Origin: Microcaldota archaeon
GTDB taxonomy: Archaea > Micrarchaeota > Micrarchaeia > Norongarragalinales > UBA97
Assembly (NCBI GenBank): GCA_016194335.1
Contig: JACQBR010000011.1
Span: forward strand, 1-64,000
Direction: 5' to 3'
Length of the DNA stretch: 64,000 bases
The notes under the pieces are model-generated. The model was not told the DNA's origin. It made no database searches and saw only the letters and a program-made list of their open reading frames with translations. Positions 11,707-24,077 of this stretch are shown in pieces; positions within the stretch are counted from its first letter, which is position 1; every line of letters begins with the position of its first letter. The position numbers and the translations under genes are program-made.

Positions 11707-14700
11707 ATGCCGGCCGATCCAAAAATGTTTGTCAATTTCTTTGAAAATGGGTGGGGGGGCGAATCCATGACTCCTGTTGCTGAAGGGAAGGAAAAGGGCG
11801 GGCTGACTGTTTCGGAGCAGAAGAGGATCACTGGCCTGAAAATCCAGCGGGTTTTCACCAAGGAAGGGCAGGACCCCTACTCGACGGTCAAGTGGGACAG
11901 GCGCTCAAGCGTAATCCGCAACCCTGACGGCAGCACGGTGTTCGAACTCAAGGACGTGGAAGTGCCTGCAAGCTGGTCGCAGGTGGCCACCGACGTGATG
12001 GCGCAGAAATACTTCCGCAAGGCGGGAGTCCCGCAGTTCGACTCAGGCGGAAAGCCCGTCCTCGACTCGAACGGAAAGCAGTTGCTCGCGGGGGAGAATA
12101 GCGTGAGGCAGGTGGTGTCGCGCATTGCAGGCTGCTGGCGCCACTGGGGAGAGAAGCACGGCTATTTCGCGTCAGCTCAAGACGCGTCTGCGTACGAGGA
12201 CGAGATGGCGTTCATGCTCCTCAACCAATACGCCGCGCCCAACTCGCCCCAGTGGTTCAACACGGGCCTCAATTACGCCTATGGAATCGCCGGACCGGCA
12301 CAGGGGCATTGGTATGTCGACCCCGATTCTGGGCACCTCACGCAATCGAAAGACGCGTACACCCATCCGGCTCCGCACGCGTGCTTCATCCAATCAATAA
12401 GGGACGACCTCGTCAATGAGGGCGGGATTTTCGACCTTGCAAGGAGGGAGGCGCTTGTTTTCAAGTACGGCTCTGGAAGCGGGTCCAATTTCTCCTCTCT
12501 GCGGGGTTCGGGTGAGAAGCTCAGCGGAGGCGGAATCTCAAGCGGGCTGATGAGTTTCCTGCGGATTTTCGACAGGGCTGCGGGCGCGATTAAATCCGGC
12601 GGGACCACCCGCAGGGCGGCGAAGATGGTCGTGGTGGACATGGACCATCCCGACGTGGAGCAATTCATCGAATGGAAGATGGTGGAGGAGCAGAAGGTCG
12701 CCGCACTGGTGACGGGCAGCAGGCAGAACGCAAAGTGGCTCAACGAAATAATGAAAGTCTCAATTGAACAGAAAACGGATGATTACAAGCGCAACCCCGG
12801 CCTTGCAAGGGCAGTTGCCCAAGCGCAGGAAAACGGCGTCCCCCTGAACTACATCGTGAGAACCGTTTCGCTTGCAACTCAAGGAAAGACAAGCCCCAAC
12901 ATTCCCGTTTATGACACCCACTACGAGGGAGAGGCGTACCTGACCGTAAGCGGGCAGAACAGCAACAACAGCGTACGCGTGTCAAACGAATTCATGCGCC
13001 TTGTCGAGAAGGACGGCGAATGGAACCTCATTGCCCGCACGAGCGGAAAACCCGTCAGGACACTCAAAGCGCGTTACCTGTGGGATAAAGTGGCCAACTC
13101 CGCTTGGGCAAGCGCCGACCCCGGAGTGCAATTCGACGATACGATCAACGAATGGCACACGTGCCCGGTGGACGGGAGAATCAACGCAAGCAACCCGTGC
13201 AGTGAATTCCTCTTTCTCGACGACACCGCATGCAATCTCGCAAGCATAAACCTCGCGCCATTTCTCAACGAGGACACCGGAACATTCGACGCCAAGGGAT
13301 TCCTGCACGCCTGCAGGCTATGGACAATAACGCTCGAAATCAGCGTGCTGATGGCCCAATTCCCCTCAAAGGAAATTGCCTTAAAGAGCCATCTGACGCG
13401 AACACTCGGCCTCGGCTACGCCAACCTCGGCACGGTCCTGATGGTGATGGGCGTGCCTTACGACAGCGACAGGGGCCGCGCCATTGCGGGCGCCATTACC
13501 GCCCTGATGTGCGGCGAGGCGTACGCGACGAGTGCGTCCCTTGCAAAGGCGCTCGGGCCTTTCGAGGCATACGGCCGCAACAAGGAGCACATGCTCCGGG
13601 TCATCCGCAACCACCGTCGAGCGGCTTACGACGCGCCCGCAGGCGAGTACGAGGGGCTGACGGTAAAACCAGTCGGTATTAACGAACAGCATTGCCCGGC
13701 AGAACTGGTGACGGCGGCAAGGGAAGCGTGGGATCGGGCCTTGGACCTTGGGGAAAAAAACGGGTACAGAAACGCGCAAGTTACGGTGATCGCTCCGACT
13801 GGCACGATTTCTTTGGTGATGAACTGCGACACCACGGGAATCGAGCCCGACTTTGCCGTCGTGAAGTACAAGAAGCTCTCGGGAGGCGGGTATTTCAAGA
13901 TAGTGAACCAGAGCGTGAAAAAGGCGCTTGGGCACCTGGGCTACTCCCGGCAGCAAATGCACGAGATTGAAAGATACTGCGTGGGCCACGCGACCCTGCA
14001 GGGCGCACCGCACATAAATTGGGAGAGCCTCAAGCAAAAGGGTTTCACGCCGGACAAGATCGACGCCATTGAGAAGCAGCTCCCAAACGCGTTCGAGCTC
14101 AAGTTCGCGTTCAACAGGTTCGTGCTCGGCGAGGAATTCTGCAGGGGCGTGCTGGGATTCACCGAAGCGCAGCTTGACGACCCCAAGTTCGACCTGCTCA
14201 AGGCGCTCGGCTTTTCAAGGCAGGAGATAGCAGAGGCCAACGACTTCGTGTGCGGCACGATGACGACCGAAGGCGCGCCCCACCTCCGGAAGGAGCACTA
14301 CGCGGTGTTCGACTGCGCGAGCAAGTGCGGCAAGAGGGGAACGCGGTTCATTTCAGCAAGGGCGCACCTGAGGATGATGGCCGCCGCCCAGCCTTTCATC
14401 AGCGGCGCGATTTCAAAGACCATCAACATGCCCAACGAGGCGACGGTGGCAGAGGTGAGGCAGGCGTACGACGAGTCGTGGGGCCTGATGCTCAAGGCAA
14501 TCGCACTCTACCGCGACGGGTCGAAACTCAGCCAGCCCCTCAACGCCTCGGCGGACGGGGAGGACGAAGTTGCAAGCGTGCTGGGAAGGGAAGAGCAGGA
14601 CGTGGACGAGACCAGGGGGCTCCGGGAGCTTCAGGAAAAAATCGTCGCGTCATACAAGCTGCGCAAGCGCGACCTGCCCCACAAGCGCCTGGGCTTCACG

Positions 14701-15378
14701 GAAGAGGCGAGGGTGGGCGGGCACAAGATTTACCTGCGCACCGGCGAGTACGGCGACGGCACTCTCGGGGAGATTTTCGTCGACATGTACAAGGAAGGCG
14801 CCGGATACCGCTCCCTGCTCAACTGCTTCGCGATTGCCGTGAGCAAGGGGCTGCAATACGGAGTTCCCCTTGAGGAATTCGTCGACACGTTCACCTTCAC
14901 CCGCTTCGAACCCTCGGGAGTGGTGCAGGGCAACGAGAACATCAAGAACTCCACAAGCATCCTCGACTACGTGTTCCGCGTGCTGGGCTACGAGTATTTG
15001 GGAAGGGAGGATTTGGTGCACTACAACCCGCAGGGCCACGCCACGCGGCCCGAACTCACCCAAGGCCAGAAACAGCTCGCAACCTACCTGCCCCCGACCG
15101 CGTCTAGAATGCCTCCCGAAATGAGGATGGCCCACCCTTCCGGACTGCCAGCCGCACCCGCAACAAGCGTTTCCGCCCCAGCAGCCACGTTCTCCCAGCA
15201 CGGCAAGGACTTCACCCGCGGCGCAGATGAGGCGGGCGGGAATGCGGAAAAAATTGCCGACGCCAAGGCGCAGGGCTACACCGGGGAACAGTGCCTCAAC
15301 TGCGGAAGCATGAAGGTCAAGCGCAACGGCTCGTGCGCAGTGTGCGCCGACTGCGGCGAGACGACGGGATGCAGCTGA
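11707..15378 (+). CDS. nrdJ: Adenosylcobalamin-dependent (class II) ribonucleotide reductase
   Basis: [55 protein letters not shown]-terminal [25 protein letters not shown]-track start used; the ATG at 11767 is an alternative. Confidence 0.95.
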
Positions 15379-15892: not shown

Positions 15893-15987
15893 TACAGAAA
15901 AACAGGAAAGTCTTGCGAAAATGCAATTCCTGTTTTGCTACTAGCGGACTCGGCAAATCACCTGCACAACTTTCCGAGTCCGCTATA
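15893..15987 (-). repeat. Dual-hairpin element, divergent copy D
   Basis: Stems 15899-15908/15927-15936 (AAAACAGGAA/TTCCTGTTTT, 18-nt loop) and 15942-15953/15974-15985 (TAGCGGACTCGG/CCGAGTCCGCTA, 20-nt loop); shares borders and central TTTGCWACTAGCGGA with the other copies. Confidence 0.75.
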
Positions 15988-16065
15988 GCTTCCCCTGATG
16001 GCTTGCGCGGGGGTTCCGCAAATTTATTGACGGTTGGGCGGCGCGTCCCGCCGTCTTTTTCACGC

Positions 16066-16157
16066 TATAGCGGATTGCATAGATAATGAAACATTGCCAG
16101 CAATCCGCTAGTTGCAAATCGCACTTCTAAAGTTCCAGAATTAATGCGATTTGCTAT
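16066..16157 (+). repeat. Dual-hairpin element, copy 1 (92 bp)
   Basis: TATAGCGGATTGC...GCAATCCGCTAGTTGCAAATCGCA...TGCGATTTGCTAT; near-identical reverse complement at 22698-22789. Confidence 0.9.
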
Positions 16158-16923
16158 ATTTGCCGGCCGCGGGGGGACCGGGCATCCTGTCTGCAACGAG
16201 CATGAAACGGCCTCCCACCTCCTCGCCGGGAAACTGGCGCACCCGCACTTTGAAGCCTTTTTCCTCCAGCAACGCGGCGAATTCCGCAGGATCGCTCGCA
16301 ACGTGAGCCGGATATTGCCTGCTGGCTGGAAGGTCGATGACCACAAGCCGGTGGGAAATGGCATCCGCAATTTTCCGAAGCGTTTCAAGCCGCTTTTCAG
16401 GCTCGATGTGGGTGAGCACCTCGGGAAGAAACGCAATGTGGAACGAACCGGAGAAGGGCAGGTTCCGCGCGTCCGCCTGCACGTAACTGAATTTTTCCCG
16501 CGGCGGCTTGTGGCGCGCGTACTTGTCGCGCAGCTTGGCCAGCGCGAGGGGAAGTCCGTCCTTTCCCTTCACCCGGCTGAACGACGTTGCATCCAGCCAG
16601 TCCTGGCGGAGATATTCCCCAACCGCCTTGTTTTTCGTGTTGGCGATCCCCTCGCGCAGGAATTTGAGGAGGTTTCTCGAAATGTCGAGGAAAACCGTAT
16701 GGCCAAATTTCCTGCCGGCAAGCATTGGGTTGTATCCCGCGCCTATTTCCAATCCCCGGACGTCCCCGTTTTTCAATCCCGGCACCCGAAGAAACCGGGA
16801 TACCTTCAGCCGGTTTGACGGGGAGGAAAGCAGGGTGGCGTACGACGGGGGCAAATCCCGGTCGTAAAGCCTGCGGTGGGTCCACATCCGGCGGTTTTCA
16901 TCAATCTCGAAATTGCCTGCCAT
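16141..16923 (-). CDS. Class I SAM-dependent methyltransferase
   Basis: GLEIGAGYNPML, VFLDIS, YVQADARNLPFSGSFHIAFLPEVLTHIEP; start at MAGNFEID (16923). Stop codon falls in repeat copy 1. Confidence 0.8.
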   Translation of the reverse strand: MAGNFEIDENRRMWTHRRLYDRDLPPSYATLLSSPSNRLKVSRFLRVPGLKNGDVRGLEIGAGYNPMLAGRKFGHTVFLDISRNLLKFLREGIANTKNKAVGEYLRQDWLDATSFSRVKGKDGLPLALAKLRDKYARHKPPREKFSYVQADARNLPFSGSFHIAFLPEVLTHIEPEKRLETLRKIADAISHRLVVIDLPASRQYPAHVASDPAEFAALLEEKGFKVRVRQFPGEEVGGRFMLVADRMPGPPAAGKYSKSH

Positions 16924-17897: not shown

Positions 17898-18797
17898 TCA
17901 ACTCCTCCGGCTTTCCCCTGGCTTTTTTTCGGGAGCTACAAGGCCGTAGAGGAAGGTGGCGATGTCAATCCCGCCGGGCGGCTTGAATTCGCGCAGGTCC
18001 GAAAGCGACCCTGAAAACGGCCCGAGGCTTGCCTTAGTCGGGTCATCAACATGGAGAATCTTGTAACGCAAAGTGAGCGGCACTCGCGTTGACAAAGGAG
18101 TTTTCGGATTTTCGGAAGTGCCGAAATGTCCCTGGAATTCCAAGAGCTTTTGGCGCACGCCGTCATTCGCAACCGTTTCCGGGCTTACCCCGCGCAATTT
18201 TTCTATGATTGTCTGGACATCGGGGTGCCGGAGAATGAAGGAATTGACGCGATCCATCGCCTTGGCGGCCTCCCCACTGCTGTCGGTGTGAAGCATGAGG
18301 AAAATCTCGTCCCCTCCCTTCCTAACGACCACATCCTCGTTGCGGAGCTTGGAAGTGAGCGTCTCTGCGATTGCGCGCAACGCCTTGTCGCCCGCAGTGT
18401 CTCCGGCAAGGTCGTTAACCATCTTAAGGCCCTGAAAATCAGTTCCCACAAAAGACACGGCGCGCCCCAATCTCGCCACTCCAGGCAGTTTCTTGGGCAC
18501 AAGCACGCTCCTAACGAAGGCAAAATTGTGCAGGCCGGTAAGCCCGTCTTTCATCGAGCGGATCCTGTTCCATTCGTTAAGCCGCAAAAGAGCCTCTTCG
18601 CCCCAATTAGGGATGCCTGCACCCTCTTCGCCCCTGGAGAAAGCCAGCCTTTTGGCCCTCAACTCATCAAGCCTATCCCGATTGACGTCCTCCAGCGTGC
18701 GCCGCTTCCTGACAGGCTTGGCGCCTTTTTTTCCGTTCGGCAATTTATTTTCACATCCTTTATAGCTCAAACGCCCTTGCGGGCGGATCTTCATCAA
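17898..18797 (-). CDS. GGDEF-domain protein (putative diguanylate cyclase)
   Basis: MKDGLTGLHNFAF, GTDFQGLKMVNDLAGDTAGDKALRAIAETL, RKGGDEIFLML. Confidence 0.83.
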   Translation of the reverse strand: MMKIRPQGRLSYKGCENKLPNGKKGAKPVRKRRTLEDVNRDRLDELRAKRLAFSRGEEGAGIPNWGEEALLRLNEWNRIRSMKDGLTGLHNFAFVRSVLVPKKLPGVARLGRAVSFVGTDFQGLKMVNDLAGDTAGDKALRAIAETLTSKLRNEDVVVRKGGDEIFLMLHTDSSGEAAKAMDRVNSFILRHPDVQTIIEKLRGVSPETVANDGVRQKLLEFQGHFGTSENPKTPLSTRVPLTLRYKILHVDDPTKASLGPFSGSLSDLREFKPPGGIDIATFLYGLVAPEKKPGESRRS

Positions 18798-22650: not shown

Positions 22651-22697
22651 AATACCACCTTCAATCGACAGATTGTTTTTGCTGCAAAATCATTTTA

Positions 22698-22789
22698 ATA
22701 GCAAATCGCATTAATTCTGGAACTTTAGAAGTGCGATTTGCAACTAGCGGATTGCTGGCAATGCTTCATTATCTATGCAATCCGCTATA
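22698..22789 (-). repeat. Dual-hairpin element, copy 2 (92 bp)
   Basis: Reverse complement of 16066-16157 with one difference seen by eye (aaacatt vs gaagcatt context); lies between lysA and dapL. Confidence 0.9.
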
Positions 22790-24077
22790 ACAGCCTATCG
22801 GGAACGCTCTGCCTTCCAATGAGGTCGCCGACATTCTCCCGCTCGCGAATCAAGTCGGCCTGCCCGCCATTCACCATCACCTCGGCGCAGCGCGGCCGGG
22901 AATTGTATTGAGAGGACATGCCAAAGCCGTACGCGCCGGCGTTGAGCACCGCGATGAGGTCTCCGTCATGCACTGCCGGGAGGGGACGGTCGCGCGCAAT
23001 GTGGTCGGTGTTTTCGCAAATCTGCCCCACGACCGAAGCCGTGCCTTCCACCGGCGCGTTGAGGTTGTTCGCCACAAGAACCACGTGGTAAGCGCCGTAC
23101 ATCGCAGGCCGCAGTAGGGTGTTCATCCCCGCGTCGGTCCCTATGAAGCGCTTTCCGGAATTCTTCACGTGATGCACCCGGGCGAGGAGGACTCCGGCAT
23201 CGCAGACGAAATAACGCCCGGGCTCCACGAGAAGCTGCGGCCGTGCGGAAGCTCCGTCACCGATGTGCTCCTTGAACTTCTCGGTGACCTCCCTGCCCAC
23301 GCGCCCTACATCCAACTCCACCTCACCCGGCCTGTAGGGAACGCCGAAACCCCCTCCGATGTTGATGAAACCGAATTCGATTCCAACCTCGCGGGAGATT
23401 TTCGCCGCAGTGCGGAAAAGCATTTCAGCCACTTGCGGGAAGTATCCGGCGTCAAGCACGTTCGAGCCGGTCATCATGTGAATGCCGAAATTGCAATAGC
23501 CAAGCTCCTTCGCGCGGGCGTAAGCGCCAAGGATGCGGTCTTCGGAAATGCCGAACTTTACCTCGGGCCCGGCAAACACCAGCTTTTCCATCCCGCCCCT
23601 GCCCAAGCCGGGATTGAAGCGGAAGCATATGCCTGCAATGTCCGATGGCTTTGCGACTTTTGCAAGCTTCTCCAGAAGCGGCGCGTCGTCAAGATTGACC
23701 GTCACCCCGTTCTCCCCGGCGAATTTCAATTCCTCAAGCGAATTGTAATTGCCCGTGTAGAGCAGGTCCTTGCGTGAAAAGCCGGCCTTGAGCGCGAGGG
23801 CAATCTCGCTTGGCGCGGAACAGTCGGCACCCGCCCCTTCGCTTCGCAAGACCGAAAGCACGCTGAGGTTGTTGTTCGCCTTCACGGCGTAATAGGCGCG
23901 GAAGTTTGAATAGTGCCGTGCGAACGCGTCCTTGAGGCGGCGGTAATTCTCGCGCATGCGGCTCTCGCTCATCACGTAAACCGGCGTGCCGAATTTCCCG
24001 GCAATCTCCATTGAACTGCAGCCGTCGATGAAAAGCGTCCCGCCACGGTTCTCCAGCTGGCCTTCAATCGCAAGCAT
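22785..24077 (-). CDS. lysA: Diaminopimelate decarboxylase
   Basis: FRAYYAVKANNNLSVLSVL, INIGGGFGVPY, LVEPGRYFV, NAGAYGFGMSSQYNSRPR; stop lies inside repeat copy 2. Confidence 0.93.
   Translation of the reverse strand: MLAIEGQLENRGGTLFIDGCSSMEIAGKFGTPVYVMSESRMRENYRRLKDAFARHYSNFRAYYAVKANNNLSVLSVLRSEGAGADCSAPSEIALALKAGFSRKDLLYTGNYNSLEELKFAGENGVTVNLDDAPLLEKLAKVAKPSDIAGICFRFNPGLGRGGMEKLVFAGPEVKFGISEDRILGAYARAKELGYCNFGIHMMTGSNVLDAGYFPQVAEMLFRTAAKISREVGIEFGFINIGGGFGVPYRPGEVELDVGRVGREVTEKFKEHIGDGASARPQLLVEPGRYFVCDAGVLLARVHHVKNSGKRFIGTDAGMNTLLRPAMYGAYHVVLVANNLNAPVEGTASVVGQICENTDHIARDRPLPAVHDGDLIAVLNAGAYGFGMSSQYNSRPRCAEVMVNGGQADLIRERENVGDLIGRQSVPDRLL

Follow-up and report, generated by a model that had tools for sequence, protein, structure and literature searches.

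Two short elements in the window (the whole 64-kb stretch of Micrarchaeota DNA analysed here) each consist of two side-by-side hairpins, and the stems are perfectly paired but differ in sequence from one element to the other. What are these elements, and what keeps their stems paired as the sequence changes? A preliminary description, made from the sequence alone, read the compensatory change as selection on structure and named three candidates: a non-autonomous element derived from PATE or IS200-605, recombination sites, or a double-hairpin RNA.

A dispersed family with two hairpins

Both elements are present where first described. The first, on the minus strand, spans 15895–15985 (91 bp), with boundaries set by aligning related copies together with their flanks. 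Its left hairpin, TAGCGGACTCGG..CCGAGTCCGCTA, occupies 15942–15985 and its right hairpin, TAGCAAAACAGGAA..TTCCTGTTTTTCTG, occupies 15895–15940, as delimited by stem pairing and DNA folding; the TA on either side (15893–15894 and 15986–15987, from the flank alignment) is a putative 2-bp target duplication. The second, on the plus strand, spans 16068–16156 (89 bp), with a left hairpin, TAGCGGATTGC..GCAATCCGCTA, at 16068–16110 and a right hairpin, TTGCAAATCGCA..TGCGATTTGCTA, at 16112–16156, delimited in the same way; the flank alignment again places a TA on each side (16066–16067 and 16157–16158). The preliminary description also holds for the core TCCGCTAGTWGCAAA, for the outer TATAG/CTATA ends and for the stems, which pair perfectly yet differ in sequence. 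A third element, at 22699–22787 on the minus strand (89 bp), is a further copy of the second type and lies between 3-bp TNA duplications at 22696–22698 and 22788–22790 (TTA|..|TTA on the element strand; L009). Folded as DNA, the elements in the window gave z-scores of -4.7 to -8.6.

The third element adjoins an ORF for a PLP-dependent decarboxylase (22785–24077, minus strand), whose TAG stop codon is supplied by the element (22785–22790); the insertion thus changed the final codons of the decarboxylase gene. Elsewhere in the window, a GGDEF-domain ORF (17898–18797, minus strand; Pfam E-value 2e-16), unexpected for an archaeal genome, overlaps an ORF on the opposite strand. A class II ribonucleotide reductase of 1223 aa (11707–15378, plus strand) has its barrel domain split into two stretches, perhaps because an intein or another domain is inserted.

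A covariance model (R1) found about 48 distinct copies in the 1.18-Mb genome, in three subfamilies, A, B and C, and matched all three elements in the window. The host assignment rests on a gene in the window whose closest protein neighbours in the database belong to Micrarchaeota. The same plan is shared by all subfamilies: hairpin 1 (TAGC...GCTA), a single G, and hairpin 2 (TWGC...GCTR). The element at 15895–15985 belongs to subfamily A (91 bp, TAGCGGACTCGG.. / ..TTCCTGTTTTGCTG). Those at 16068–16156 (99% identical to the consensus) and 22699–22787 belong to subfamily B (89 bp), of which 30 copies were analysed, 13 of them identical 89-mers; subfamily C is 91 bp long. In the same genome, 17 intact left hairpins were found by pattern search (reversed control, 0), and the core with at most one mismatch occurred at 45 places (control, 0). 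The elements are therefore short (89–91 bp), non-coding, dispersed and multi-copy, they start TAGC and finish GCTR as terminal inverted repeats, and they lie between TA or TNA on both sides, all of which are features of miniature transposons (MITEs). This bears out the earlier suggestion of a family that is non-autonomous.

The elements were mobile, as is proved by copies nested within one another. In one case (L002) a B copy sits within the right loop of a C copy with TAA duplicated, and in another (L005) an A copy sits within the right loop of a B copy. These nested copies also provide the empty-site evidence, in place of sister-strain sites. At L002 the change from the empty site, GATAAGATT, to GATAA-element-TAAGATT is as expected; L005 requires the loss of one T to be consistent with a TA duplication. 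Two 123-bp C/B chimeras with an identical order of parts occur at different sites (L003, C8:49786; L060, C23:41079), and may derive from a B copy nested in a C copy that lost one arm and then itself became mobile. A fragment adjoining a B right end (L094, C22:1–1770) was considered as a possible partner and rejected: a copy on contig C18 has the same end but not the B sequence, so the fragment belongs to another transposon, unrelated to the family, that inserted into the loop of a B copy. This decayed transposon carries an IS3-type insertion, and a remnant of the same transposon lies at L104 (C18:82223).

The exact core pattern had no match in 84,980 genomes and IMG/VR outside the element's own genome, and the family was detected elsewhere only through structure or terminal-inverted-repeat (TIR) models. 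With R1, related multi-copy elements were found in 18 of the 295 genomes of the class, the window's genome included; a broader model (R2), applied to 301 genomes of the phylum, found them in 26. Here and in the other genomes, the ends are TAGC..GCTR between TA or TNA. The loops, which had been called unrelated, proved at the level of the family to carry the subterminal part of the TIR: GTAATGCRAC in what we term class 1 (subfamilies A and C) and TKGAACTTT in class 2 (subfamily B). By sequence alone, as a TIR pattern, the class 1 end was recovered from 23/295 genomes (reversed pattern, 0). Since the motif has opposite orientations in the two loops, hairpin 1 corresponds to the left end of a transposon and hairpin 2 to the right end.

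Each hairpin on its own begins TAGC or TTGC and finishes GCTA or GCTR, and the linker between them is 1–3 nt, which would also suit an origin from two mini-elements of one hairpin each (TAGC..GCTA), formerly mobile alone and then fixed in tandem. We consider this origin improbable. Nearly all elements found have both hairpins, the left and right loops share their subterminal motif in opposite orientation, as the ends of one transposon do, and among the elements recovered, full hairpins were not seen to form a family of their own.

Stems that diverge together

In each element, the 11–13 bp that open either end recur just inside it in inverted form, and across genera the two arms of a stem have diverged together. 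In the model-fitted alignment, two-sided changes were seen in 22/22 stem pairs, so that the stems of the many further copies and relatives have been maintained. This alignment is biased toward the modelled structure and includes many elements twice, once per strand; in it, 95.5% of cells were paired, as against 72.3% after shuffling and 31–45% after sliding. Arms of the same end paired in 406/432 cells compared with at most 349 after arms were swapped; this set took only ends with 9/12 or more positions paired, and part of its loci had been chosen by the model. When TIR hits were picked regardless of structure, 20 of 38 clusters repeated 10 or more of their first 12 bases in inverted form further in. 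The covariation reported earlier therefore stands; its cause may be selection on structure, as was proposed, or an equivalent copying process.

Strong folding and covariation are also what transcribed double hairpins would show, whether as a small RNA, a 3' UTR stabiliser or a terminator, with stems selected at each site. Some B copies, moreover, lie exactly at stop codons (5/16 non-interior insertions against an 11% background, p = 0.027, with crude gene calls). Some placement of this kind would be expected in any case, since TAA, TGA and their complements are all forms of TNA, and with numbers this weak we do not claim any special targeting of stop codons. Against an RNA, a helix should favour G-U over A-C mismatches, and this was not the case: on best strands only, the 1272 cells with letters on both sides comprised 1221 Watson-Crick pairs, 17 G-U and 12 A-C. 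Within subfamily B, all stem changes were uncompensated, with eight one-sided, pair-breaking changes and no two-sided ones, and an Rfam scan of the window gave no matches. A double-hairpin RNA is thus very improbable. Rare G-U pairs together with decay of the stems after insertion indicate a constraint at the DNA level, acting on source copies.

The inner arms are not universal. The ends of autonomous insertion sequences fold back at 6.7/12 positions on average, near chance, with the exception of three at 9–10, and some small elements have no inner arms (L261 and L262 in G027, L265 in G023, L174 in G142). The first three of these are class 2 MITEs of 82 bp, hairpin-free and with flanks resembling TNA. 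The last (G142:C56:17903) is a TA-flanked TAGC..GCTA element of 40 bp that resembles a left and a right end joined without inner arms. Together, the data point to fold-back as a DNA-level property of the source copies that move, one that the MITEs gained or reinforced and that individual sites do not maintain.

Target-site duplications and candidate source transposons

In the window's own genome, TA was present on both sides of all A and C copies (14/14; 6/6 for A). In contrast, a TNA triplet matched on both sides in 24 of the 30 B copies, against a mean of 7.4 and a maximum of 16 after shuffling, and its middle base varied from site to site. The B copy at 16068–16156 is one of three with TA instead of TNA. 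We then tabulated flanks for 102 elements, with class called by eye from the loop motif before the tabulation. Class 1 flanks were TA in 47/49 (TNA in one and other in one), while class 2 flanks were TNA in 35/51, TA in 10 and other in six. The association between class and flank type is strong (Fisher p = 3e-15), a value that is optimistic since copies within one genome are related, although the split recurs in several genomes. The standard target duplication of the IS630 family is TA, and TNA is unusual. Class 1 (A and C) thus duplicates the TA expected of an IS630-derived MITE and class 2 (B) does not, and even the class 2 rule is not strict, given TA in 10/51.

Related genomes contain larger transposons with matching ends. 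A transposase domain of the DDE_3 family (PF13358) was present in 33/295 genomes, and the transposases, which combine DDE_3 with IS630-type HTH domains, split into two separate clades, group I and group II, with support of 1.0. Many of the IS630-type ORFs stop 3–28 bp ahead of a TAGC end, in the register seen in the MITEs, and the terminal and subterminal sequence of the elements (TAGCRAA-N-AAAGTAATGCRAC or TAGC-N-AATATTGGAACTTT) matches the IS630-type ends in register. Group I ends resemble class 1. A class 1 end occurs in a full IS630-type element (L187/L211; L187 in G251), and the group I end in G002, a genome of the same family as the window's, reads ACTTTCTTGGTCAGCTATA where subfamily C has ACTTTCTTGGTTTGCTATA, and TAGCTGACCAAGAAAGTCTT where C has TAGCAAACCAAGAAAGTCTT. 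Group II ends resemble class 2 (TAGCTAA..TATTTGAACATTTT, and TAGC..AAATATTGGAACATTTT at L229). Among five group II elements whose flanks were examined, three had TNA (L208 TAA, L216 TTA, L218 TTA), L219 had TA and L213 had unlike triplets. G001, also of the window genome's family, carries a group II element with two ORFs (IS630-type HTH and DDE_3). Ends matching an IS630-type transposon were found in other genomes only (L266 in G002, L187 in G251, L219 in G001, L229 in G012). Judged from these sequences, class 1 and class 2 elements track the two transposase clades.

A profile search of the window's genome, an assembly that is 85% complete, found no DDE_3 transposase. The burst of B copies is recent, and its partner is therefore either absent from the assembly or lost. 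TAGC..GCTA ends were not found at its three DDE_Tnp_1 (PF01609) transposases, which have other or unrecognised ends. Flanks of TNA or TA are a signature of the IS5 family (IS1031/IS427), and an IS5 reading of the flanks here was replaced after the IS630-type ends had been found in relatives.

Hairpins near both ends, in an assembled genome that yielded no autonomous partner, would fit a PATE-type element whose end hairpins are read as single-stranded DNA by an IS200/IS605 HUH transposase. HUH transposition leaves no target duplication, however, and the element carries the right-hand site with it, so the variable but matching TNA around B copies (24/30 against 7.4 expected) excludes single-strand insertion for them; all ends match instead the IS630-type DDE elements of relatives. 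We regard the PATE origin, one of the candidates in the preliminary description, as almost certainly wrong. Covarying stems and unlike loops recall the general behaviour of single-stranded recombination sites, yet attC-like sites that fold in this way are the least credible of the candidates, in view of the target duplications, the nested insertions, the transposase-matched ends, the lack of RYYYAAC/GTTRRRY boxes on inspection of the aligned ends, and the lack of any visible cassette array.

On the evidence of target-site duplications, nested insertions and in-register ends, all read from sequence, the elements are MITEs related to the IS630 family. The explanation that best covers the data as a whole, and that we hold with high confidence, is that they are IS630-type MITEs with dual fold-back ends, the fold-back being a DNA-level feature of the source elements. 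These non-autonomous elements would use the transposase of larger IS630-type transposons, which would recognise them by the TAGC at the outer end and by the motif that lies in the loop. In the source elements the inner copy would be perfect as a feature of the DNA, and inserted copies would afterwards decay neutrally. Palindromic ends, as a cruciform or a single-strand hairpin, may aid transposition, or the inner copy may be regenerated by fold-back copying; we favour the two about equally. A bolder proposal is that an archaeal IS630-type clade makes 3-bp, stop-codon-shaped TNA duplications and that the co-evolving fold-back ends of its MITEs are active in transposition, with the hairpin or cruciform recognised or regenerated at each round. 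We offer this tentatively and think it rather unlikely in full.

Relation to known mobile elements

Several known repeats share part of this design. Double-hairpin elements of mitochondrial DNA consist of two adjacent hairpins and are dispersed and apparently mobile; we know of none with IS630-type ends or TA/TNA duplications. REP/REPIN and PATE elements are also short, palindromic dispersed repeats with covarying stems, but they depend on HUH chemistry without target duplication, which the elements here do not share. The ends of Correia/NEMIS elements of Neisseria also begin TATAG[CT]GGATT, a possible resemblance to those described here. These are small MITEs with 5'TA3' termini and a target duplication (PMC2229807); they differ in having longer paired terminal repeats, no dual-foldback layout and a different host.

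The nearest described case is RUP, the repeat unit of pneumococcus, which is thought to be mobilised by IS630-Spn1 (PMC2229807, PMC3049150). RUP is a non-autonomous element of 107 bp with high copy number, a TA target and IS630-like ends (PMC2229807, PMC3049150), and so follows the same logic with a different architecture: its terminal repeats pair with each other (PMC3049150), whereas in the present family the pairing partner of an end is the inner copy next to it. The present elements further differ from RUP in their two separate, co-evolving hairpins, their archaeal host and a class with TNA. Non-TA duplications are known elsewhere in the IS630-Tc1-mariner supergroup, with TAA in Fot (pogo) (PMC7386202) and TATA in Sailor (PMC8533490), so TNA is a variation rather than a break. 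Those cases share the transposase supergroup but belong to the pogo and Sailor clades, while the one here is a compact archaeal group with a degenerate TNA.

What sets the family apart is the pairing of each end with its own inner copy, a folding that the ends of insertion sequences generally lack. Within the literature searched, we found nothing on such elements in Micrarchaeota, and we believe that no earlier account describes MITEs in this archaeal lineage as a family. The present one shows an IS630 clade with TNA in place of the TA target duplication. It also supplies a naturally occurring set of DDE transposon ends, left and right, whose fold-backs have stayed perfect as their sequence changes, and with it the importance of hairpin ends to a DDE transposase becomes a directly testable question.
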